From the NCBI GenBank assembly GCA_951640195.1, contig OX621163.1:3906001-3970000 (forward strand): a stretch of DNA of 64,000 nucleotides. Reading direction: 5' to 3'. Origin of the DNA: Porpolomopsis calyptriformis. Taxonomy: Eukaryota > Basidiomycota > Agaricomycetes > Agaricales > Hygrophoraceae. Of this stretch, positions 12,407 through 61,929 are shown in pieces (the first letter of the stretch is position 1; every line of letters begins with the position of its first letter). The notes beneath the pieces were generated by a model, which searched no databases, was not told the origin of the DNA, and saw only the letters and a program-made list of their open reading frames with translations. The position numbers and the translations under genes were made by a program.

Positions 12407-12773
12407 TGTTATGATTCGGTAGTCGAAGGCTTTACTTCTCACGTTGGAGGGGCTGATGAGGAAATGGAATTCAACTAAAGAGTGAGGGAGCTAACTAGGA
12501 ATCGAACTTAACCTACTGACTAGAGGTCAGGCTTTATATACTAACTACCTGAGTCGGCATGAGTCAGTCGTATAGATGATTACAAAGCGCAAAACGGAAT
12601 GTGACTAGTGAAGAGTCACGAAAAGAATAACGGAAACAGAATGTGACTCGTGAAGAGTCAGAAAGAAGGTACATGTGACTAGTCTCTATATATAAAGCAG
12701 TAAAGCGGAAGGGTAAACGGAATAAAGATTAATCAAGTATGACTAAAAGAAAAAGGAAAAAGTATCCGTGACA
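12407..12773 (-). repeat. Element A 3' LTR
   Basis: 367 bp, with ends TGTTATG... and ...GTGACA as read on + (TGTCAC...CATAACA on -). It aligns over its whole length without gaps to 18735-19101. The minus-strand sequence just before it (12774 onward, GGTGTA) is the putative polypurine tract region, GATGTGGGTGTA. Confidence 0.95.
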
Positions 12774-18722: not shown

Positions 18723-18733
18723 AAGTTCAATTC
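18723..18733 (-). promoter_or_regulatory. Putative self-primer binding site, element A
   Basis: The 11 bases lie one base inside the 5' LTR (GAATTGAACTT on -). They are complementary to the LTR 11-mer at 18827-18837 (AAGTTCGATTC on -) except for one C-to-T change at a CpG. Complementarity stops after exactly 11 nt. There is no TGG-start tRNA primer site. Confidence 0.7.
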
Positions 18734-18734
18734 T

Positions 18735-19101
18735 TGTTATGATTCGGTAGTCGAAGGCTTTACTTCTCGCATTGGAGGGGCTGATGAGGAAATGGAATTC
18801 GACTAAAGAGTGAGGGAGCTAACTAGGAATCGAACTTAACCTACTGACTAGAGGTCAGGCTTTATATACTAACTACCTGAGTCAGCATGAGTCAGTCATA
18901 TAGACGATTACAAAGCAGAAAATGGAATGTGACTAGTGAAGAGTCACGAAAAGAATAACGGAAACGGAATGTGACTCGTGAAGAGTCGGAAAGAAGGTAC
19001 ATGTGACTAGTCTCTATATATAAAGCGGTAAAGCGGAAGGGTAAACGGAATAAAGATTAATCAAGTATGACTAAAAGAAAAAGGAAAAAGTATCCATGAC
19101 A
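18735..19101 (-). repeat. Element A 5' LTR with TATA box
   Basis: 367 bp, gapless against the 3' LTR. On the minus strand TATATAA lies at 18868-18862, and the predicted transcript start AAGTTCGATTC begins at 18837, 31 nt downstream. The following five bases, 19102-19106 (GATGT), are the right target-site copy. Confidence 0.93.
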
Positions 19102-31059: not shown

Positions 31060-31315
31060 TGTTACATCCCAGTTCCGGCAAACTCCGATGAATTCTGATG
31101 AACTCCGATTACTCCAACAACTCCGAACACTCCGTACTTTTCACATGTTTCCTACTTATGACGTGCTCTGTTATTACTATGTCTCAGATATAATTATCTA
31201 GCAGGTATATAAGTACTGCATTTTTTCCCTGTATCTGTAGACAGAATATCAACTAAGTCTCGTCGTTTATCCAACTCCAATCTCTGAAATCAACTCTGAA
31301 ACTTCAGACCTAACA
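31060..31315 (+). repeat. Element B 5' LTR with TATA box
   Basis: 256 bp from TGTTACATCC to CCTAACA. TATATAA at 31206-31212 lies 33 nt before the predicted transcript start AGACAGAATAT (31239-31249). It aligns without gaps to 37203-37458 with about a dozen differences, mostly transitions. Confidence 0.95.
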
Positions 31316-31317
31316 GT

Positions 31318-31328
31318 ATATTCTGTCT
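31318..31328 (+). promoter_or_regulatory. Putative self-primer binding site, element B
   Basis: ATATTCTGTCT begins two bases after the 5' LTR and is the exact reverse complement of the LTR 11-mer AGACAGAATAT at 31239-31249. The match ends on both sides after exactly 11 nt. No tRNA-type TGG primer site is present. Confidence 0.75.
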
Positions 31329-37202: not shown

Positions 37203-37458
37203 TATTACATCCCAGTTCCGGCAAACTCCGATGAATTCCGATGAACGCCGATTACTCCAACAACTCCGAACACTCCGTACTTTTCACATGTTTCCTACTT
37301 ATGACGTCCTCTGTCGTCACTATGTCTCAGATATAATTATCTAGCAGGTATATAAGTACTGCATTTTTTCCCTGTATCTGTAAACAGAATATCAACTAAG
37401 TCCCGTCGTTTATCTAACTCCAATCTCTGAAATCAACTCCAAAACTTCAGACCTAACA
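37203..37458 (+). repeat. Element B 3' LTR
   Basis: 256 bp, starting TATTACATCC (the usual TG mutated to TA) and ending CCTAACA. It is preceded by a polypurine tract, AAGAGGGAGATAC (37190-37202). The target copy GAAGC follows at 37459-37463. Confidence 0.94.
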
Positions 37459-39601: not shown

Positions 39602-39999
39602 TGTTATAAACCGGTTGTTTAGAATGCATTTTACTTCAGGTGTTCTGTCCCAAGAGATGAAGGTATTGTTCTAAGTCCTTGTTATGAGTAGCTAATGAGG
39701 AATCAGACTTAAGGTCTGATACATACAAAGGTACCCTTTATATACTGACTACTTATCTGCGTGAGTCAGTGCGACATAACATATGTAAGAGATAAGGGAT
39801 GAGTCATCGTGATCAATGACGAATCATAAGGGGTTGAGACATAACAGAAATGAAAAGTGTCTGCATATGGATAGAGTAATGGGGAATCCTGGAGAAAGGC
39901 AATGGGGAATCCCAATGAAAGAATGTGGGGATTCCCAAGATAAGATACAGGTTTGCATACGATAAGATAAAGGAAAGAAGAAAAATTACAACCATGACA
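39602..39999 (-). repeat. Element C 3' LTR
   Basis: 398 bp, TGTTATAAACCGG...ATGACA as read on +. Relative to the 5' LTR it has one 22-bp extra piece near 39946-39967 (containing ACAGGTTTGCATACG), next to a repeated GATAAGATA. Confidence 0.93.
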
Positions 40000-46064: not shown

Positions 46065-46075
46065 AAGTCTGAGTC
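46065..46075 (-). promoter_or_regulatory. Putative self-primer binding site, element C
   Basis: GACTCAGACTT (on -), one base inside the 5' LTR, is complementary at 10 of 11 positions to the LTR 11-mer AAGTCTGATTC at 46175-46185. The mismatch is a single A-to-C change relative to element D. Confidence 0.65.
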
Positions 46076-46076
46076 T

Positions 46077-46452
46077 TGTTATAAACCGGTTGTTTAGAAT
46101 GTGTTTTACTTCAGGTGTTCTGTCCCAAGAGATGAAGGTATTGTTCTAAGTCCTTATTATGAGTAGCTAACGAGGAATCAGACTTAAGGTCTGATATGTA
46201 CAAAGGTACCCTTTATATACTGACTACTTATCTGTGTGAGTCAGTGCAACATAACATGTGTAAGAGATAAGGGATGAGTCATCATGATTGATGATGAATC
46301 ATAAGGGGTTGAGACATAACGGAAATGAAAAGTGTCTGCATATGGATAGAGTAATGGGGAATCCCAGAGAAAGGCAATGGGGAATCCCAATGAAAGAATG
46401 TGGGGATTCCCAAGATAAGATAAAGGAAAGAAGAAGAATTACAACTGTGACA
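46077..46452 (-). repeat. Element C 5' LTR with TATA box
   Basis: 376 bp. On - the TATATAA box is at 46219-46213 and the predicted transcript start AAGTCTGATTC begins at 46185, 34 nt downstream. The target copy ACACC follows at 46453-46457. Confidence 0.92.
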
Positions 46453-47650
46453 ACACCCCTTTCATATGCAGCTAATAACAGGCATAATGCCATTGTGAAG
46501 CTGCTACTTGCTCAGGATAACATTCAAGTGGACTTGGAGGACCAGGATTGTCAAACACCCCTTTCATATGTAGCTAAGCATCAGCAAATTCACATGAACT
46601 TGGCCTTTTTCAGTGAACTTGGCCTTTTTCAAATGAACTTGGCCTTTTTCTACCCTTTTTTCAAAGTTTTCAGCTTCTTTAGTGAACTTATATTTACTTT
46701 TATTTTTAACTTTTCTATCAGTTTTATAAGTAGGTGGACAGTTTTATAAGTAAGTAGACTGGTCTTATAAAAGGTGGATCTACTTTTCAAGTTTTACCCT
46801 TTTTACTCCTTTTTACTCCTTTTCATTGTTGTACAAGGGGGAAAAGGGCTCAAAAAAGAGGATGTGAATTTGCTGATGAAGAACAGGCATGATGCTGTTG
46901 TAACACTGCTACATGCTTGGGCTGATATACATGCAGACTCGAAGGGTTGAACACCCCATTCATATGCAGCTGACAATGGGCATGACAAAGACCTTCACAC
47001 CCCTGACACACCCCAACCAATGATATCCCCAGCCATGCCATGGCAAACACCTGTGGAACCACATGGAGTAAATACCACATCAATCAATGTTCCTCCTCCA
47101 CCAGCTCCCACTGTTTGCTCTCTTGACAATGCCCCTTAGTCTCATGACAGGACCACACTGTATTTAGACAGTTCCCAGCCAATGAACAGTCTCATCCCAG
47201 AGGTACCACCTGAGCCTATAGCTCACTGGATAGGCCTATATCCCCTCAATGAGATAGTGGGGCCAATACCTGAGCATTCACTGCAACTGGAATCACTGTT
47301 TCTAGACCTTCACCCCCCTGTTATGCTGAAAATGACAGTATCCCCAGCTGCATCACAGAAAATGCCAGTGACACCACATGGTGTGAATACTGTATCAATC
47401 AATGTTCCTCTACCATCCCCTGATATGTGCTCTCCTGAAAATTCTCCTCAGTCTCATGACAGGACCACACTGTATTTGCACAGCTCCCAGTCAATGAACA
47501 GTCTCATTCCAGAGGTCCCACCAGAGCCTATGGCTCACTGGATAGATCTATTTCCCCTTGACGAGCTAGTTGAGCAGATACCTGAATTTTCACCACAACC
47601 CCAGTCACTGTTCCTCAACCTTCACACTTCTGATGAGCCCAACAGATGAT
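46453..47650 (+). pseudogene. NLR-like gene relic, ankyrin 3' part and duplicated C-terminal domain
   Basis: This continues the ankyrin region after element C: PLSYAANNRHNAIVKLLLA, then TPLSYVAKHQQIH (to about 46590), and after a non-coding insert-like piece another ankyrin (about 46865-46985, RHDAVVTLLHAWADIHADS). The C-terminal part consists of two imperfect direct repeats of about 105 codons, 46992-47306 and 47307-47618, each containing PHGVNT-SINVP, SHDRTTLYL-SSQ-MNSLIPEVPPEP-AHWI and L-LESLFL-LH-type blocks, followed by the start of a third copy. The second repeat is open without a stop from 47182 to 47649. I do not recognise the repeated domain. Near 46596-46650 the non-coding insert carries GAACTTGGCCTTTTTC three times. 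Confidence 0.65.
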
Positions 47651-48643
47651 TGATGAAACCTTGCTCTTTCTACCCCCAATTTAGCTTTGTAGATGTCCTC
47701 TGTGTTTCCACATATCCACCCATCATGGACACCATAGTTATAACCTCCATGTTGTACTGATTCTGCAAAATGTGGAGACTGGAGGGACTATCAGTATAAT
47801 GAATGGCAGAGGAAAGATTGTGCAATGGATAAAATGGATTTCATATGGGTTAGCCCTGACAAAGCTCATTTTGCAAAGGGTAGACCTTGACGAATGCCAT
47901 AGGTAAATAAACTGGCTCATCACCTTCCTCTTTAGTTCCTACTCGCTTCCACAGAGAAACTGTGTATCAGTCTGATACCACTGCCATCTGCCAATCATTC
48001 AGCTCAAGTCTCTGAAATTCAAGGTGGTGCAAATTATCAAAATTGCTTCAAAGGATTATCAAGTCTAGCAGTCATCATGGGAAGACAGCTTGGCCAGCCA
48101 TTCTCTCAAAATACAAATTGCAGGTCCAATCACATACATTGTCTAGCAGATACAGCAAGCCACCTCTCACTGCTCCTCCAACTAGTGCTCCAATATCTTT
48201 TCCCCACTTCAGCAGTACAACAGCATGCCCCCAGTACCGCGACAATGTATTACCAATGGACTAGTTGAGCTTGGTGGGGTGGAAGTAGGTAGGAGAAAAA
48301 GATGGACCATAGGAGAAGTATGAGGAGGTGAAGAGGGAGCATGATACACATGTGGAGAGAGTGGCAAGGGTTGCACTATTGATGGAATAGTTTGATTCAA
48401 ATCAGAGAGTGGAGGGCAAGGTTGAGGAACTGGAGAGTTGGAGTGGAATCCAAGGATAGGTGTGAAGTAATATAGATGGTGGTATTTTGTCTAGACAGTG
48501 ATAAGGACAAGTTGGTAAAGTAACTGAAAAAATGCATTTTATTTTTTGACTATGGGTATTTGATAAAGAACACCTCAAGGCTGTGCTGATTATCACTCTC
48601 TTCCCTTTCATCTCCATGGCCAGCACTCAACTTTGTGGGACAT
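47651..48643. other. No supported gene
   Basis: No frame here resembles a known protein on either strand. It lies between the end of the NLR-like relic and an LTR, and is probably an eroded downstream flank. Confidence 0.35.
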
Positions 48644-49245
48644 TGATATGACCCCTCTGTCCCCTGACCACTGTATATTCAACTATACAAATACTAGATG
48701 CCTATCAAGTCCTTCGAAAATGAACATGAACCCTTCAAATGCACCCGATAGCTCCCAAATGTTCCGAATGAGTTCAAGAATCATCAAACTCTCCGAACAC
48801 AATCAAAGCTTTCCAAACACAAATGAAAGTTTGTATATCAAAGGGAAGACACTTTTCAAAGGCATCATCTCTCTTCTAATTCTCCCTTTTCATTTGACTT
48901 CTTCATTTACTACTTTCCCCTTAGATTATTAGAGAGGCTCCCCTTTTATCATATACATTCAAAGGGATCCTTGTACTAGAAGATATATATACTGTATGTT
49001 GTAGCTAGTGATTCAACAAGTTAGATATTCACTTCTCTCTTGCTCTCAAGTCTAGATCTTCTAAGACTTCCTCTCAACTTCCTCTTTTGATCTTCCAATT
49101 CTTCCAATCCCCCAATTGATCACGTTCGTGAATGATCAAAGACTTCCTTTCCACAATCATCAATCATAGACTGTGTCGAGACTCTTTATAGTCATCCTTG
49201 CACCTTGTTCTGTGTTCAGTTCTCATACATGAAGCAGACATATCA
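48644..49245 (+). repeat. LTR of the E family, plus orientation
   Basis: 602 bp from TGATATGACCCCTC to CAGACATATCA. It is the inverted counterpart of 49571-50180: the two share the whole order of motifs, such as CATACATGAAGCAGAC, the CCTTGTACTAGAAGATATATA region and the ends TGATAYGACCCC/GACRTATCA. The flanking 5-mers (GACAT, ATCAC) do not match, so it is not a simple solo LTR insertion. Confidence 0.75.
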
Positions 49246-49570
49246 ATCACATAGAATAGATCAATTTTAGCATCACCAACCTTGGCAAAGGACAAATCTT
49301 CCTCAGACACAATTGGCTCAAGACCCATAACCCTTCTGTAGACTGGAAGGCCAGTACTCTCAACTTCAATTGATGCCTATCCAATTGTCACCCTTCTGTC
49401 AGCCCCTTTGACATCAACAACCTTACTCTGGAAGACAATGATCATTTGCTCATGATTGATCTTGCTCCCACCATCTAGATCAGGTTGATGACCACCAAAT
49501 CACAACAGCTTGCAATCAAAGCTACTGAGACTCAGAAGAAGGATCACGATTGGAAAGACATTGTCCCTGA
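49246..49570 (+). pseudogene. Fragment of another gypsy pol (protease-RT linker) between inverted LTRs
   Basis: On + a short frame reads ITNLGKGQIFLRHNWLKTHN then PSVDWKASTLNF, the end of a gypsy protease domain (usual GHDWL-KHNP-VDW). Further on, LTLEDNDHLLMIDLAP, TTKSQQLAIKATE and DWKDIVPDD match the linker leading to RT. It is interrupted by stops. The element E LTR inserted directly after it (flank CCTGA at 49566-49570). Confidence 0.65.
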
Positions 49571-50180
49571 TGATACGTCTGCTTCATGTATGAGAACTGA
49601 ACACAGAACAAGGTGCAAGGATGACTATAAAGAGTCTTGACACAGTCTATGATCAATGATCATGGAAAGGAAGTCTTTGATCATTCACAAATGTGATCAA
49701 TTGGGGAATCGGAAGGATTGGAAGGGTGGAAGGGGGAGTCGAGGAGGAGTCTTAGGGGGGGTCTAGACTTAAGAGCAAGAGAGAAGCAAATATCTAACTT
49801 GTTGGATCACTAGCTACAACATACAGTATATATATCTTCTAGTACAAGGATCCCTTTGAATGTGTATGATAAAAGGGGAGCCTCTCTAATGATCTAAGGG
49901 GAAAGTAGTGAATGGGAATGAAGAAGTCAAATGAAAAGGGAGAAATAGAAGAGAACTGATACCTTTGAATAGTGTCTTCCCTTTGATATACAAACTTTCA
50001 TTCGCATTTGGAAAGCTTTGATTGCGTTCAGAGAGTTTAATGAATCTTGAACTCATTCAGGATGTTTGGGAGCTTTCAGGGGCATTTGGAGGGTTTGAGT
50101 TCATATTTGAAGGACTTGATAGGTGTCTAGTATTCATATAGTTGAATATATGGTGCTCAGAGGATAGAGGGGTCGTATCA
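49571..50180 (-). repeat. Element E 3' LTR
   Basis: 610 bp, TGATACGTCTGC...GGTCGTATCA as read on +. It is adjacent to a polypurine tract in minus orientation and is the inverted partner of 48644-49245. Confidence 0.8.
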
Positions 50181-52079: not shown

Positions 52080-52957
52080 TCGCAACACTGTCAAGTGGTT
52101 TGCTAGCTAGCGAATGTTCCATCTCTCTAAGTCGTGAAGTCAATATATCAAGGAATCATTTGGGAATTGCGATCGATCTTTGGGCGAAGTATGGGATGAC
52201 TCTAAATGCAGCAATTGGGTGATGTAAGATGGATCCGTCAAGTTCTGTGATGATATAAGCTTTTCCTAGGTTTCGGGATATAATGACTAGGGGTCCTAGG
52301 TATTGAGGATGCATCTTCCGATTGAGAGACTTCTCGATTTTCGTGTTCCAAATGAGTATGAGATTGCCAGTTTTGAAGTTGTAGTTGCAAATGGTTTTCT
52401 CATGTCTTTTCTCGAATCGAACAGCGGACTGTAGGTGAGCAGTGGAACCTTCGATCGAAGTTGCTCTAAGTCAGCATCTCATTTCTGTACAGCAATCGTG
52501 CATTGTGAAATTAGATCAGTCATTGAGAGAACCGAATCTGGAGCGGGAAGGAGATATGTCACTTTGGAAATATCTAAAGGTAGCAATGGCTGAGATCCAG
52601 TGATAGCGAAGTAGGGTGAGTATCCCAATCGCTTTTGGGTAGTGATATGCTCAGCCCAAAATACAGAGTAGGCTCTGATTGACCATTGCTTCTGATTGCC
52701 ATCGACAGCTTTGAATAGCAATTGTCATACGTCGAAGTGAGATTGTTTGACTATCCCATTTGCGCAAGAGTTGTATCTGCTGATACAAATGTGGTTGATC
52801 CAATAGCGCTTGGCGAGGTGATCTACAGCTCCTAAGAAGGCTGTTCCATTGTCCATGATGATTTCTCGAAGAGAGCCCCAGCGACAGATTATATCCTCGA
52901 AGATCCATTTGCCAATCGATTTCGCTGTTTCCAAATGAAGCATTTGAAATTTGGGAT
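52080..52957 (-). pseudogene. Element E integrase, C-terminal part
   Basis: On - after the D insertion the integrase continues: KFQMLHLETAKSIGKWIFED, IICRWGSLREIIMDNGTAF (second catalytic Asp, about 52855), YNSCANGIVKQSHFDVRQLL (usual YNSQANG-VERGH; the catalytic Glu is replaced by Lys or Gln here), then AEHITTQKRLGYSPYFAITG and LPLDI (about 52580). Stops accumulate after about 52480. The loss of the Glu and the stops make it inactive. Confidence 0.75.
52953..52957. repeat. Target-site duplication, element D, left copy
   Basis: GGGAT directly before the left LTR of D, identical to 59993-59997. Joining the two sides through one copy gives a continuous E integrase reading THYPKFQMLHLETAKS. Confidence 0.95.
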
Positions 52958-53369
52958 TGTTATAAACTGGTTATCGATGAGATGGTTTTACTTCGGAGAG
53001 CTCTGTCCCAAGACGATGATAATGTCTCAAGTCCTAGTTATTGGGTTGCTAACGAGGAATCAGACTTAAAGTCTGAGTACGACTAACTAGGGGTTTATAT
53101 ACTAACTACGCTACTGCGGATGAGTCAGTATAAACACGAGGAGTACATGAAGAGTACATGAGGACTACATGCGACGAGTAAAGATAAACATGATAAAGGA
53201 CTTGGAGCATGTGAAGAGACGAAACATGATTGTCGGAAATGAAATGTGTCCTATCTCGGGTATATGAAAAGATACGGAATTGTGGGGAATCCCAAGTAGA
53301 GATAAGACCTGTCTGACTAAGCAGTAATGACTGATCATAGAGAGGAAATGAAAATTTACGTCCGTGACA
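52958..53369 (-). repeat. Element D 3' LTR
   Basis: 412 bp, TGTTATAAACTGG...CGTGACA as read on +. Gapless against 59581-59992. The minus-strand sequence before it, AAACGAGGTGTA, is the polypurine-tract region shared with C. Confidence 0.95.
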
Positions 53370-54310: not shown

Positions 54311-57300
54311 TCAAGTCGTTGTTTGAATTGAGTCTTCGTAAGTCTTCACAATTTCTTTAGCGTGTCGTAAGACGTTCGATCGTTCTTCCCAAGTAGCTTC
54401 TTCGATTGGATAACCTTTCCATTTGACCAAATACTTTCGTCGGGGTTGAGCTCCGGAGTGTTGAAGAATAGATTCAACTTCGTATTCTTCTTTGTTCTCG
54501 ATCAGATCTGGTGGAGGTCAAGATGTATCAGTAATATCAGGGTGGAGCAACTTATCTTCGACATTTGGTCTCAGGATTGATACGTGAAAAACTGGGTGGA
54601 GTTTCCAGGTTCCGGGGATATCGATAAGATACGCAAGATCCGATATTTGTTTCAGGATCTTGAATGGTCCAGTTCTTCGGTTATCCAATTTCTTGGCAGG
54701 TTGAGTCGTCTTGATGTTCTTGGTGTCCAACCAAACCAAATCTCCGATTTTGAAGGAGGGAGAGAGTTTCCGTTTTCAGTCGGCATATTTCTTCATTGAT
54801 TCTGCGGCGTGTGAAAGTGATTCGCCAGCACTCTTCTGAGTACACGTGAGACGTTCATGAAAGGTGTTTGCTGCGGGGACATTACTCAGGGACTCGATTG
54901 TGATCGGTAAATGAGGGTGACCGCCATATTCTAAATAGAAGGGTGATTGTGATGTGGAGGAGTGTTGTCGATTATTGTAAGTGAATTCAGCAGAAGCCAG
55001 CCATTCGGACCAGTCGTCTTGCATGAAATTGGTATAGAACCGTAGGTAGACTTCGAGTTCTTGATTCGTTCGTTCGGTCTGACCATCGGTCTCAGGATGA
55101 TAAGCAGTAGATAGTCCAGAAATGGTTCCTAGGAGTTTATTGAGGGCTTCAGTGAATTTTGATGCAAACTGAACTCCACGATCAGAAATAATCTTCTTTG
55201 GCCATCCATGATGTTTCCAGATATGATCACGGAAAAGTCGGGCAGCGCCTTCTGATGAGAGATTGGAAGTCGTTGGAATAAAGTGGGCTCGTTTTGTGAA
55301 ACGATCGATGACTACCATCACGGCGTCGTATCCAAGCAAGTCAGGTAGTTGAACAATGAGATCGACGGTTATCTCAGTCCATGGTTCGGTAGCGGGGGGT
55401 ATAGGTTGTAGGAGTCCTGTCGGCTTCGAAGGATAATTCTTGTTTTGTTGGCAAGCAGGACAGGATCGTACGTAGTTGATAACGTCTTGAGAGACGCCAT
55501 CCCAAACAAAGTTTCGGAGCACCAGCTCCTTCGTCTTCTCAATGCCAGGGTGTCCAGTGTGGGGGTAGGCGTGGGACAGTTGTATTATGTCTGTGCGCAA
55601 AGATACTTCCTCCGGCACCACAATTCGACCTTCAACATTGCGAACCAACCCATCGGCTTGGTCCCAAAACAGTGAGGCATCCTCGATTTTCTGTGAGATC
55701 TTGTTCGGTATTGGTAGCTTGAAGCGTAATCTTGCGAAAAAGTCCGGTTCTGAAAGTTTGATGATTGAATTGATCCAATGTTCATCTGCGATTAAAATCT
55801 CGTCTTCCACCTCGCCTTTACCCTTGTCAAAATAATCCGGGCGCCTGGATAACCCATTGGCCTTGTTCTTCCTCCCTGGGACGTACTCAATTTTATACTC
55901 GTTTCTTGATAGGATTTCTGACCAATGAGCACGTCGTCCAAATAATACGCGAGCAGTACTGAAATACTTGAGGGCAAGACTATCGGTACGAATCAGAAGG
56001 TCGTGTCGCGAACCTTCCAAAAGATGTTGCCATGCTTTAAGACAGTCTATTATCGCTAGAAGCTCGGCGTCGTGAGTCGGATATTTCTTTTCAGCGGGAG
56101 TTAGAGATCTTGAATGAAAGCCTATGGGTTTCCATTCGTTTTCGTGCAGTTGAGACAGTATTCCTCCTAAAGCAAAACCAGAGGCGTCAGTCTCTAAGCA
56201 GTACGGCAGGTCTTGGTCCGGCACTTCGAGGACAGGGGCATTTGTGAGGGAGTGTTTTAATTGGTCAAAGGCGTGTTGTCGTCTGGGGGTCCATTCCCAT
56301 ACGGTATCTTTGCGGAGTAATTGGTTGAGCGGTTGGGCGATCTTTGAGAAGTCCTTGATATATTTCCTCCAGAAATTCACGCTTCCGAGAAAGGATTGGA
56401 GTTGTTTCACGGTTCGAGGTTCAGGCCATTCAGCTATGGCCTTGATCTTTTTGGGATTGGTTCCAATATAACCTTTCGTCAAAGTCATCCCTAGATAGAT
56501 CACCTCTTCTTTCTCGAATTGGCATTTGACAGGTTTGCAGGAGAGTTTGTTCTTCTTCATGACATCAAGGGTCTTGAACGTCCAGTAACGCAATTCTTCT
56601 AGATCATCTCCGCAGATGAGAATGTCATCGATATAGATAAAAACACAACCTGATTTTAACACTTCAGCAAATCGCATGTTGATTATCCGTTGGAACGTAG
56701 CTGGGGAATTCCGTAGACCAAAGAACATCACTCTTGGAACATAGAGTCCCTTGACCGTTGATACGACCCATTGGTCCTTTGGACTCCAATTCATGATTTG
56801 TATGTGTTGATGTTGATAGTGACTAGTTACAGTAGATGTGACATGTAACGACAGAAGAAGCCTTTGTATGCAACCACCACATTCCCTCTACTTGCACTTC
56901 TGGAGGGCTCAGGCCCAGCCCAGTCGTATCACCGTGTTGAAAGCAGCTTTCCATTCGTCGCCTTCTTTGATCCGAATGTTGTTAAATCCCCATCGGATAT
57001 CCACGACTGTGAATAGCGCAGCAGATCGTAATTTGGGTTGTTGAACGATTTGATGGAGAAGTGGTAGAGGATATCGGTCAGGAACGGTAAAGTGGTTCAG
57101 ATAGCGGTAGTCTTCGATTGGTCTATATCCAGCGTCTTGTCCTTTCGCGTTGACTTCTTCAGCTTTCTTGCTCAGGAAGAATGGAGCGGCTTGAGGTGAG
57201 GTACCTTTGAATATTCGTCCAGTGGCCACGTTTTCTTCCAGAAACTTCTCTAGGAAGTCCATCTCTCGAGGGGACATCGGATAAGTCTTGTCATTCTGAG

Positions 57301-58024
57301 GTACGAAGCTATCTTTGAGATCAATGACGTGATCAAATTCAGAATGAGGTGGAAGGCAATCAAAGGACTCCTTGGCAAAGACGCTAGCATAGTCTTTCCA
57401 ATAGACCTTCGGTACAAACTTTCGCATATCTTCCTCCACCGTGCTGGCTCTAGACTTGTCCGATTTTGAAATACTTGTTATCGCCAGTGAGACCGATTCT
57501 ACCACAGAGGGCTCTGCTTCGCCGCTACAATACCGACGGGAAATCTCTTTGCCTCTGAGAGCCAGTGTTGAACTCTCCCAGTCGATACTAGGGTTTTGAG
57601 CTCTGAGCCATGGGTAGCCGAGGATAATATCAAACTTGGATCCGAGGTCGGTCACTTCCAAACGGATCCTTTCAGTGTGTCCACCTGGAGCTTCTATCCA
57701 GACATCTGTGTCAAAAACGATCGGGCCTCCTCGGTTCTCTGACCCATCGGCATTCCGTACAGGGATTGGGGTTTCCAAATCCTGAAGGGTAAATTCGTGA
57801 CAAGTTGTGAAATTCTCGTCTATAAAGTTTCCAGAAGCTCCGCTATCAATTAGACACGTGGCGGGGACACGTCGGCCACTGTCTGAAGCTTTGATCCAAA
57901 CGTCCATCGTAAGTCCTGAATTGCCCTTTTTGATCGTACCAAGAGTCCGAAACAAATTGCATGGAGTAATGGTACATCGAGTCGTATGGTCCGCGACGTT
58001 GAGCGCAGTGTCCGAACCTTTCAA
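54311..58024 (-). pseudogene. Element D pol (PR-RT-RH-IN-chromodomain), nearly intact
   Basis: Pol is entered by a -1 shift at 58024-58030. Protease CLIDSGASGNFIDENF (about 57845); RT with GYRPIEDYRYLNHFTVPDRY (about 57110), VVDIRWGFNNIRIKEGDEW, then the 173-bp insert, MFFGLRNSPATFQ and catalytic YIDDILIC (about 56630); RNase H ETDASGFALGG (about 56190); integrase zinc finger (HAYPHTGHPG and CPACQQ, about 55560-55450), catalytic Asp in TVDLIVQLP (about 55360) and SDRGVQF (about 55175) and Glu in DGQTERTNQ (about 55075); a chromodomain KYLVKWKGYPIEEATWEE (about 54410). TGA at 54776-54778 (Arg in YAD*KRKLS) and at 54518-54520 (Trp in C: TS*PPPD). The insert plus its 4-bp duplication is 177 bp, so it keeps phase but introduces stops. 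Confidence 0.92.
56759..56931. mobile_element. 173-bp insert with TGATACGAC/GTCGTATCA ends inside element D RT
   Basis: The segment has inverted ends TGATACGAC...GTCGTATCA and is flanked by CCGT on both sides (56755-56758 and 56932-56935). Removing it and one CCGT restores the RT reading FNTVKGLYVPRVMFFG. No coding capacity. The ends TGATACGACCC also match the first bases of the element E LTR, so it may be either a very short LTR-derived (solo LTR/TRIM-like) piece or a MITE with a 4-bp target. Confidence 0.75.
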
Positions 58025-59220
58025 AAACCCTGGGCCTTCAAGTCCGCTGCCAACCTCTTCTTCCGATCATCCGACCAATTGCATATACCAGATTTCGCCA
58101 TGTCCGATGGAGTCTCGCTCGTTGCCAATGTAGCGGGCGAGCTGACATTCTCCACGTGGGGCTCAATGGTAATGACACGTATGTCTCTGCCTCGTCCTTG
58201 TCCTCGTCCTCTGTAACCTCCTCTACCTCGAAAGTATCCTCCTCGATGTGAGGAAGAGGTATCGGGTAAATTCTTTGCATCACCGGCGACGCAGTTTGGG
58301 CAGGTATTTGCGAAGTGGCCAGATTGGCCGCAGGAGTAACAATTCCCATATGGGATCGTATTGGCAGAAGAGGAAGGCTCCTCTCTCTTGATGGTGGGGG
58401 CTGCTGTCGTTTGACGGGTCGTCGTTGCAGCCACATACAATCCTCGTGTAGGAAAGGGATTGGAGTATTGGGATCGGGACGTGGAGGATTGTTTCTGTGA
58501 GGCGAGAATATCTTTCTGGTGTTGGTAACGTGTCGTGGCATCCTTCCACTCTTGAAGTGTGGCAGGGACGGCGGGGAGTCAGTAAACGTATTCAATGAAC
58601 TCGGAGTCGAGTCCAGCTTGGTAGAGATCGATGAGGGTGGCGTCGTTGAAACCGGTATCGACCTGTAAAGCGCCGAAGCGCAGGTTATAGTCTTCTATTT
58701 TCCTCTTCCCTTGACGGAGATTCTTGATGTCGTTACGAGCGCGGGACTGTCTGTCGATTCCTTCAAATGTTGATCGGAATCGAGTTACAAAGGCGGCCCA
58801 GGTAGCAGTCGGGCCAGTCCAGTTGACAGTCCTCATGTCGTTAGTCTCCTTTTCAGACCAAGTTTGAGCCATCATGCCCTTCATGAAGGAAAGGGCAAAG
58901 GGAATCTTGTGTTCGTCGCGGTATGGTTTCCCCATGAAATATAATTCGCAGCTGTTAATAAATTTGTCGACGTCTTGTTGTCGACCAGTGAACTCGTCTG
59001 GCTTGGCCATCTTTATCTCGATGGTGGGAGCGGCAGGAGGTTGAGGCTGAGGTCCCGGTGGGGGCTGAACTTGAGCGGCGAGTTGTTGGTGGAGATCTTG
59101 GATCTCTGCCGCTTGGATCACATTCGAGGCCTGAAGGGTGGCCATCTCCCTCCGTAAGTCGTTCATAACTGCGAGGATTTCGTTAAGGTTAGGAACAGGG
59201 GGGTTAGCGCGAGAACCCAT
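58021..59220 (-). pseudogene. Element D gag
   Basis: From ATG 59220 (MGSRANPPVPNLNEIL); the frame is open further upstream to about 59535 (LDDDEDFYDPSEQDNP), so the true start may be upstream or non-ATG. It contains a coiled-coil (MNDLRREMATLQAS), a Pro/Gln linker, a capsid-like domain (IKMAKPDEFTGRQQDVDKFI, FALSFMKGMMAQTWSE, FRSTFEGIDRQ, IEDYNLRFGALQ), a CCHC knuckle CYSCGQSGHFANTC (about 58335) and an Arg/Gly-rich RGRGGYRGRGQGRGR tail. One TGA at 58579-58581 (YVY*LPAVP, Arg expected). Ends AQGF-TGA at 58021-58023, right after the slippery heptamer. Confidence 0.88.
58024..58030 (-). promoter_or_regulatory. Putative -1 frameshift site, element D gag/pol
   Basis: G GGT TTT on - followed immediately by the gag stop TGA. 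The -1 frame continues as LKGSDT and all of pol. Identical heptamer in A and C. Confidence 0.72.
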
Positions 59221-59568: not shown

Positions 59569-59579
59569 AAGTCTGATTC
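59569..59579 (-). promoter_or_regulatory. Putative self-primer binding site, element D
   Basis: GAATCAGACTT (on -), one base inside the 5' LTR, is the exact reverse complement of the LTR 11-mer AAGTCTGATTC at 59680-59690. The match ends after exactly 11 nt. Confidence 0.78.
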
Positions 59580-59580
59580 T

Positions 59581-59992
59581 TGTTATAAACTGGTTATCAA
59601 TGAGATGGTTTTACTTCGGAGAGCTCTGTCCCAAGATGATGATAATGTCTCAAGTCCTAGTTATTGGGTTGCTAACGAGGAATCAGACTTAAAGTCTGAG
59701 TACGACTAACTAGGGGTTTATATACTAACTACGCTACTGCGGATGAGTCAGTATAAACATGAGGAGTACATGAAGAGTACATGAGGACTACATGTGACAA
59801 GTAAAGATAAACATGATAAAGGACTCGGAGCATGTGAAGAGACGAAACATGATTGTCGGAAATGAAATGTGTCCTATCTCGGGTATATGAAAAGATACGG
59901 AATTGTGGGGAATCCCAAGTAGAGATAAGACCTGTCCGACTAAGCAGTAATGACTGATCATAGAGAGGAAATGAAAATTTACGTCCGTGACA
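59581..59992 (-). repeat. Element D 5' LTR with TATA box
   Basis: 412 bp. On - the TATATAA box lies at 59724-59718 and the predicted transcript start AAGTCTGATTC begins at 59690, 34 nt downstream. The target copy GGGAT follows at 59993-59997. Confidence 0.95.
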
Positions 59993-61929
59993 GGGATAGT
60001 GTGTAAGGGAGCATCGCCCTTGGACTATATATTGAAATGGACTGGATCAGGGCATATGCATCATGTCGATGTAGATTTTGGTGAACAGGGGAGCTGGCGT
60101 GGAGACAGTCGGAGGGACAAGGGCTTGTGCGGTTTGATGGAGCTGACAGGTATGACACATCCAAATGAACCAGACTATGTTAGGGGCTATATGGGGCTAC
60201 TAGAAACATTCAGAAACGATTGATCAAGTAGCAAAGATAGCCTTGTGACCTGTTCAATCGTGAAGTTCTGTCATGATCACTAATTGGCAATCCGGATCAA
60301 TGACTAATTTGTGAGCACCTTGTCTATCTTTTCACCATAGTCAATGGTTGTTGATATAGAACTCTTCGCAGTATCATATGAAACTTGCGTAGTTGCTGTT
60401 GGACATGTTGCTTGGTCATTTGAGATCTGAGAGCCATTTTTGAATGAGGATAAGTTGTCAATCATCTTGCTGAGCTGCTTCTGATCATGGAATGATGTTG
60501 TAGGAATCAATACGTGGATGGATAGGGTCCTCCTCCTCCTTACTGAAATGTTTACTCTGTGAGTAAACAGAGGTGGGCAATTGGAGGGTTTTTGTTTGGG
60601 GTGCGGGTGAATCATTGATATGGTGCATTAATCCGTGAATGCGATCGATCCAATCATTGAAGTCTTTATCAATCGGTTCTTCATCATCTTAGTCATCGGG
60701 CTGTCAGGGATGTCGAGAGAGACTGTCAGGACCATGGTTTGAACCAGCGACATGTACCAAGGTAAAATGGAACATTAGGATCGCTACAATCCATCTGTTA
60801 ATACTAGCCTGGGGTGCAATGTCTGGGTTCGCTAGCATTCCTTTGATATAGCAAGCATCAACTTCTATGATAAGGTTCCGAACGCTGATGAGGTATAGTC
60901 AGAGCGATTGCAAGGCTCAATAGAGACTATAGATTTCAAGTTTCAGCTGAGAGAACCTTCTTTCTCAATCGTTCAATGTGATCAAACTGAAATGATTATA
61001 GTACCATTTCTTCGGGTTGTCAGGATTGCATTGGCAGAGATGAAAGCCAACAGTGATATAGGAGGTGTCAACGGTGAGTATGACAGGGGCATCAGAAGTA
61101 TAATTGAGAACTCATAGAGTAGGCGATTCTAGAAGGGCTTGTTTTAGGTCCTCTTGGGCAGCAAGCTGATCGGGACCAAATTCAAAGGGCATATCCTTCC
61201 TAGTGAGCTTGACTAGGTGGTGTGCTTGATGCGCAAAGTTGCAAATGAAAATCCAAATGATGCCAATAGTGCCAAGGAAGGCTCAAACTTTGGAGAGGTC
61301 TTTACAAGGACCCCAGTTTCAGATTGCTGAGACACGCAATTTGTTGGGTAGTCATCCTAAATGAGTACATTGATACCCAAGAATGGTGGTTTCTTCTGTG
61401 CATAAGAATGATTTATAGCCTGACATGGTTCCGCCGCAATATTTCATTCGCTGGACTATTCGATTGAGATTCCAGAAGTGTTCCCACATGAATCGTCGAA
61501 TTCCATCGTTCTCAGGAATCGTTTTGTAGGATCCATCAGGTAATACATATCAAGTCATGGGACCCTTCACAGGGATATCATCGATGTAGGGGATCATAAA
61601 CTCAGGAATCTCTAGTTAGAGGATATAGGTGACGTTGTCGTGAAAAACAGGCACAGAGTTGGTCCATCCCATGGGTAGGGTAACTAGTTGATAAGCCCAA
61701 TAGGGTGTTTGGAATGTGGTTAGATCGTGAGATGAAGGTGCAATCACTTGTTTGTCATATCCGATGTAAAGATCGAACATAGCACCGCAGGATCAACTGC
61801 CAAACTGTTTGGCCAAGTGTTCGGGAATTGGCATGACTCCTGAGTGTCGAATTGTAACTTGATTGAGTGGTTCGAGACTGTGAATGATTCTAAGTTCTTT
61901 CCCTCCTTTCTTTAGAATGGTGAACCATC
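59993..61929 (-). pseudogene. Element E RT, RNase H, linker and integrase N-terminal part
   Basis: Minus-strand pol with many stops. RT: SGWFTILKKGGKELRIIHSL (about 61900), MFDLYIGYDKQVIAPSSHDL, LVTLPMGWTNSVPVFHDNV (about 61660), the catalytic box as PYIDDIPVKGP (about 61580), YKSFLCTEETTILGYQC (about 61400); RT-RNase H junction with LTRKDMPFEFG (about 61205); RNase H with VDTSYITVGFHLCQ (about 61060); then PDSLSRHP, an acidic linker (SKEEEDPIHPRID), GAHKLVIDPDCQL, and the integrase start with LHQTAQA and YIDMMHMP (about 60060, first catalytic Asp), running into element D at THYP. Confidence 0.75.

Follow-up and report, generated by a model that had tools for sequence, protein, structure and literature searches.

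Recurrent primer and primer binding site pairs consistent with Tf1-type self-priming in chromodomain LTR retrotransposons of Porpolomopsis calyptriformis

The Tf1 retrotransposon of Schizosaccharomyces pombe supplies its own primer for reverse transcription. The first 11 bases of its RNA pair with the primer binding site (PBS), and RNase H cuts between bases 11 and 12 (PMC7175516). The RNA around the Tf1 PBS is described as a three-duplex "pretzel" structure, and in the same account self-priming is given as a common feature of the Tf1/sushi group, which includes Tj1, sushi-ichi, MAGGY, marY1 and others (PMC10085805). The tree in that source places marY1, from the mushroom Tricholoma matsutake, and the source reports that a -1 frameshift predominates in the group outside the fission yeasts and that the Gag CCHC motif is absent only from the fission-yeast members it treats (PMC10085805). 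For Tj1, self-priming was likewise deduced (PMC4600332). Self-priming has been proposed for Tcn1 of Cryptococcus neoformans, and a possibly novel mode of priming for Tcn2-5 (PMC7175516). It is predicted for most plant Tcn1-clade elements (PMC6317226), and the account of SM-Tcn1 reports no evidence of it there (PMC2864245).

The elements described here were found in the mushroom Porpolomopsis calyptriformis. They resemble Tf1 in having an 11-nt primer at the mRNA 5' end (a predicted end here) and a PBS past the 5' LTR, and in being chromodomain Ty3/gypsy elements with an LTR that ends in CA (PMC7175516, PMC10085805). Unlike the single Tf1 case, the primer sequences vary among the families of this genome. 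Compared with SM-Tcn1 and Tcn2-5, a predicted self-primer is present in all 22 readable LTR pairs (with one locus, L013, taken at its true LTR end). Self-priming has been shown for Tf1 and is deduced here from sequence. We make no claim that it was undescribed in mushrooms; this genome is a clear, well-replicated case of a mechanism already known for the Tf1/sushi chromoviruses.

Four elements in the window

The window, a stretch of 64,000 nucleotides from contig OX621163.1 (assembly GCA_951640195.1), carries four LTR elements, A to D (Table 1). They belong to the chromodomain-bearing Ty3/gypsy LTR retrotransposons, the chromodomain itself being seen in A and C. Their LTRs end in CA and each element is flanked by a 5-bp target duplication. 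The layout of D is common to all four, and A and B use other 11-mers. The PBS lies one base past the LTR CA in A, C and D and two bases past it in B, as in the L014-, L015- and L049-type elements found elsewhere in the genome.

Table 1. Features bearing on priming in the window elements, with two genomic loci of the 112-bp LTR family. Positions are those of the window except where a contig range is given.
Feature	Position	Strand	Details
5' LTR of A	18735..19101	-	367 bp; 3' LTR 12407-12773; target duplication ACATC
Predicted self-primer of A	18827..18837	-	AAGTTCGATTC; TATATAA at 18862-18868
PBS of A	18723..18733	-	GAATTGAACTT; ten Watson-Crick pairs and one G:T
5' LTR of B	31060..31316	+	257 bp; 3' LTR end at 37458; target duplication GAAGC
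Predicted self-primer of B	31239..31249	+	AGACAGAATAT; TATATAA at 31206-31212
PBS of B	31318..31328	+	ATATTCTGTCT; exact, 11/11
5' LTR of C	46077..46452	-	Boundary by eye; duplication GGTGT on both sides
3' LTR of C	39602..39999	-	Boundary by eye
Predicted self-primer of C	46175..46185	-	AAGTCTGATTC; TATATAA at 46213-46219
PBS of C	46065..46075	-	GACTCAGACTT; 10/11 paired, one mismatch
5' LTR of D	59581..59992	-	412 bp, TGTCAC...AACA; duplication ATCCC at 59993-59997
3' LTR of D	52958..53369	-	98.3% identity with 5' LTR; duplication ATCCC at 52953-52957
TATA box of D	59718..59724	-	TATATAA; primer begins 34 nt after the start of the box
Predicted self-primer of D	59680..59690	-	AAGTCTGATTC; predicted mRNA nt 1-11
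PBS of D	59569..59579	-	GAATCAGACTT; exact primer complement; one-base spacer A at 59580
gag-pol region of D	54776..59220	-	Separate frames, each ATG-started
L049	G000:C2:3613900-3623800		4.9-kb chromovirus-like family, 112-bp LTR
L051	G000:C11:1503300-1513200		Same 4.9-kb family as L049, 112-bp LTR

The original prediction paired an 11-mer inside the 5' LTR of D with its exact complement just past the LTR, 34 nt after the start of a TATATAA box. The coordinates and the exact complementarity hold, and the spacing measures 34 nt in both D and C; the same box starts 31 nt upstream of the primer in A and 33 nt upstream in B. The same pair with one mismatch had been claimed for C and is confirmed there, with the mismatch falling in the PBS. 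In none of the four elements does a TGG lie within the first 14 nt past the LTR, in line with the original statement that no TGG-start tRNA site exists. That pairing stops at exactly 11 nt is true of D, where the next bases are C and A, but fails as a general rule, with pairings of 11 to 14 nt in other families.

Pfam scans of the gag-pol frames of D recognised gag (Retrotrans_gag and Ty3_capsid), protease, reverse transcriptase (RT), RNase H and the zinc and core domains of integrase, the core falling below the Pfam cut-off. The D frame scanned ends in this integrase core and gave no chromodomain. A chromodomain at the C terminus of integrase scored above the cut-off in A, C and the genomic locus L050, together with a Tf2-type SH3 domain in A and C. 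The one frame of B that was scanned by Pfam gave no domain. Two repeats stand between C and D in the interval 47058-50180: one is a tandem pair, 81% alike over about 255 bp, and the other is inverted, 88% alike over about 0.6 kb.

Recurrence and covariation of the two words

The genome surveyed comprises 33.5 Mb in 17 contigs. An RT search listed 150 scored matches of 820 candidates, and 44 RT loci were sampled from it, with high-scoring RTs over-represented. Among these 44, a primer and PBS complement of at least 11 nt was found in 32 and a junction with a single mismatch in four (L009, L026, L034 and L037). In the other eight (L010, L021, L028, L029, L035/L050, L039, L045/L053 and L058) no LTR pair or LTR end belonging to the RT itself was recognised in the stretch fetched, and they were counted neither way; neighbouring junctions in L010, L021, L028, L039 and L053 are exact. 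The genome also contains 123 Copia-type RT matches.

A controlled comparison was made with 22 LTR-paired elements (18 loci and the four window elements) in which the LTR end was located independently of any complement. The script sought an ACA-ended LTR and then searched for the complement within the final 450 bases of the LTR. An ACA-type end was found in all 22, its placement being wrong in L013. An exact 11-nt complement lies 0-3 nt past the LTR CA in 17 of the 22, and 21 have at most one mismatch; the remaining element, L013, was scored at a misplaced ACA, and at its true LTR end the complement is exact over 12 nt. When the same LTRs were dinucleotide-shuffled, an exact complement arose in 5 of 4400 shuffles and one with at most one mismatch in 110 of 4400. 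The 11-nt complement in these elements is thus not due to chance, and the existence of the pairing rests on this shuffle-controlled test.

A similarity search for junctions over the fetched stretches, which is biased toward junctions resembling its queries, returned 61 rows, of which five were repeats, leaving 56 distinct primer and PBS junctions. Forty-nine are exact, six have one mismatch (A, C, L009, L026, L034 and L037) and none has more than one. The junction of L031 was gapped in the search alignment and is exact in a separate junction analysis.

Twelve families or subfamilies carry different pairs. The primer matches the PBS of its own family at 11 of 11 positions in eleven of them and at 10 of 11 in A. 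The 132 cross-family combinations average 5.1 matches with none at 11, and all 11 positions vary on both sides across the twelve pairs. None of 10,000 permutations attained the observed sum of own-family matches; because the twelve pairs were selected for matching, this permutation test speaks for the family specificity of the pairing and not for its existence. The RTs of eight families with a pair are 34-76% identical in amino acids, so the trait spans deep divergence.

Covariation can also be followed among close relatives. For the group formed by A, C and D, 472 PBS-like sites (at most two mismatches) and 494 primer-like sites, including those in 3' and solo LTRs, were found genome-wide; patterns read backwards gave no site in either case. 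Of the 472 PBS-like sites 100 were listed, and linkage was assessed for the 61 of these that lie on contigs 1 and 2. Thirty-nine of them are linked to a listed primer 103-112 nt upstream. All 24 copies with a CT primer have CAG in the PBS, and the 15 with a TC primer have CGA (11), TGA (2) or CAA (2). There are no crossed pairs in the 39 (Fisher p = 4e-11, with counts that are not independent since the copies are related). For the other 22 of the 61, no primer is listed at a distance of 80-140 nt; the primer pattern tolerated no mismatch, which may explain this, as may an LTR that is cut.

Four of the 39 linked copies, A among them, have imperfect pairs, and each imperfection is a transition at a CpG. 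The mismatches in L026 and L034 are also CpG transitions, while those in C, L009 and L037 are not. The CpG transitions are compatible with decay after insertion, which does not fit the mismatches of C, L009 and L037. Many copies across the genome have TGA stops inside pol, and some primer and PBS words have CpG transitions, which suggests that repeats in this genome undergo CpG-directed decay.

What is observed directly in this genome is the arrangement of the two words, their complementarity, and the recurrence and covariation of the pairing across families. Tf1-type self-priming is the best explanation for these observations in A, B, C and D, and a very probable one. On the model of Tf1, transcription would start about 30-35 nt after the TATA box, making the primer nucleotides 1-11 of the mRNA. 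This 5' end would pair back to the PBS, which lies 1-2 nt beyond the 5' LTR; the RNase H encoded by the element would cut after about nucleotide 11, and the released 11-mer would prime minus-strand DNA. We propose a further step, in which plus-strand synthesis would copy the primer into a new PBS and so keep the two words matched while families diverge. The expectation that the two 11-mers covary across copies was borne out on the subset examined, with twelve family-specific pairs and no crossed pair in the 39 linked copies. The proposal that this chromovirus family self-primes gains support at the level of sequence from that covariation and from the failed search for a tRNA primer described below.

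Leader layout and other readings of the pairing

The length and position of the pairing vary somewhat among families. A complement of 12-14 nt, extending into the spacer bases or one base upstream of the start, is found in L013-, L031-, L042-, L044- and L057-type elements. The first primer base is A in 10 of the 12 pairs. In 14 of the 15 leaders examined, the primer is preceded by a TATA-like box whose start lies 28-36 nt away, judged by looser patterns that were written after the sequences had been seen; TATA(A/T)A itself occurs in seven of the 15 leaders, and a canonical TATA box is absent from the other eight. L051 has a weak TGATAG at 42 nt and no better TATA-like box.

The pairing could serve as a long-range RNA structure acting in translation, packaging or dimerisation, while something else primes. 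Covariation by itself establishes a dependence between the two words and not what they are used for, and extended leader folds are present in several families. For self-priming itself the predicted folds point both ways. The duplex between primer and PBS is part of the minimum-energy fold of 11 of 15 leaders, which favours it; the four window elements lack the duplex in their minimum-energy folds, which counts against it, and the energy penalty for imposing the duplex is 6.4 kcal/mol in D, 7.1 in C, 0.7 in A and 1.6 in B. With the duplex forced, a GTTA:TAAC helix directly upstream of the PBS appears in D, C and A, and a 9-bp helix directly downstream of the PBS is possible in A; in L013, L042, L044 and L057 a second helix stands beside the PBS in the minimum-energy fold. 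The GTTA:TAAC helix resembles one arm of the Tf1 "pretzel"; these short helices, scored without a control, are compatible with such a structure and no more. A purely structural role is nevertheless very unlikely. The downstream partner lies 1-2 nt past the LTR end in all 22 elements (L013 at its true end), which is where a minus-strand primer must sit for correct LTR ends, the upstream partner mostly begins near the predicted mRNA 5' end, and no other primer site was found.

The PBS sequence recurs in D and C immediately before the predicted start (59683-59699 and 46178-46194, both on the minus strand; TCAGACTT, ATCAGAC), so that the predicted start sits inside an inverted repeat. Elsewhere this repeat amounts to 6 nt in L014, 5 nt in B and L032 and 2-3 nt in the other ten sequences. 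It was considered as a part of the mechanism (TCAGACTTTAAGTCTGA in D) and rejected, being clear only in C and D and weak or absent in the other families.

Less probable still is priming by a host tRNA, whole or as an internal fragment, in which case the copy of the 11-mer in the LTR would be incidental. One likeness points this way: the CpG form of the A-type primer AAGTTCGATTC (18827-18837, minus strand) has 10 nt in common with the T arm of nuclear tRNA L078. This likeness is possibly a chance one. The other 13 of 14 primer forms share longest runs of 5-7 nt with the 33 nuclear tRNAs plus CCA, a partial set drawn from 53 matches among 63 scored of 1144 candidates. A PBS that starts with TGG and complements a tRNA 3' end, as in tRNA-primed Ty3/gypsy elements, is present in none of the 22 LTR-paired elements within the first 14 nt past the LTR. 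A 15-mer complementary to the tRNA that we take to be initiator-Met has no exact occurrence in the genome and a single one-mismatch occurrence; the control pattern, read backwards, gave two. Scans of the window with ARAGORN (bacterial code) and Rfam found nothing. Full-length tRNA priming was therefore set aside as unsupported by the 33 tRNAs of the partial set, the TGG scans and the initiator-Met pattern, and tRNA priming in general leaves unexplained why the LTR of each family carries its own complement.

That two unrelated words match by chance or through common ancestry is a reading that draws on the fact that many copies are close relatives whose counts are not independent, and it has a vanishingly small probability given the 17 exact elements of 22 against 5 of 4400 shuffles and the twelve different pairs changed on both sides at all 11 positions.

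The Tf1/sushi group and a family with a minimal leader

Tf1-type self-priming, the preferred reading, can be set beside the other traits of the Tf1/sushi group. The likeness is judged from sequence features. The PBS is complementary to the element's own predicted mRNA start, as placed by TATA spacing, and no tRNA site accompanies it. Gag was recognised, by Pfam or by its CCHC motif, in seven of ten elements (A, D, L013, L015, L019, L049 and L051), and the long pol frame is -1 relative to gag in all seven, where Tf1 has a single gag-pol frame (PMC10085805). The same -1 relation appears in C and L014 by frame length only, and B is unreadable. Production of Gag-Pol by a -1 frameshift is predicted from this frame layout. 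The CCHC motif is present in D, A, L013, L015, L019 and L051; the frames of L014 and C that were scanned did not show it.

Named hits among the relatives include entries annotated as "tf2 155 kda protein type 1-like" (Lyophyllum shimeji) and "Tf2-7 polyprotein" (Rhizoctonia solani), which are annotation names. Few of the best 120 relatives listed in each search bear an organism name; mushroom-forming fungi or their kin account for three of the seven that are named for D and 11 of the 13 named for L051. The fungi named include Lyophyllum, Trametes, Rhizoctonia, Pleurotus, Amanita, Armillaria and others, and the remaining named relatives are an alga, a frog and metagenome bins.

The family of L049 and L051, with its 112-bp LTR and 24-nt loop, is the least ordinary part of the finding. 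Its predicted 11-nt primer, TAGTTCTGCAA, is followed after 24 nt by an exact PBS, and the same junction is carried by L052 and L054. With only 24 nt between them, primer and PBS would form one short hairpin. The frames of L051 encode gag, protease, RT, RNase H, an integrase zinc domain and a Tf2-type SH3 domain recognised by Pfam; the integrase core and the chromodomain (20.6 against a cut-off of 25.1 bits) are below the cut-off. In L049 the Pfam scan covered gag only. If this family self-primes, it does so with scant space for the leader length and three-duplex structure that Tf1 needs. We suggest tentatively that it represents a minimal form of self-priming, and that self-priming may extend to every chromovirus of this genome, copying having kept at least twelve different primers in step with their PBS.

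Self-priming has been demonstrated in Tf1 and proposed from sequence for other elements. Here a single genome offers at least twelve different primer and PBS pairs in hundreds of copies, and with them strong comparative evidence for the mutual dependence of the two words. These families make up a natural test set for what fixes the length of the primer, how new primers originate and whether self-priming requires the complete Tf1 leader structure.
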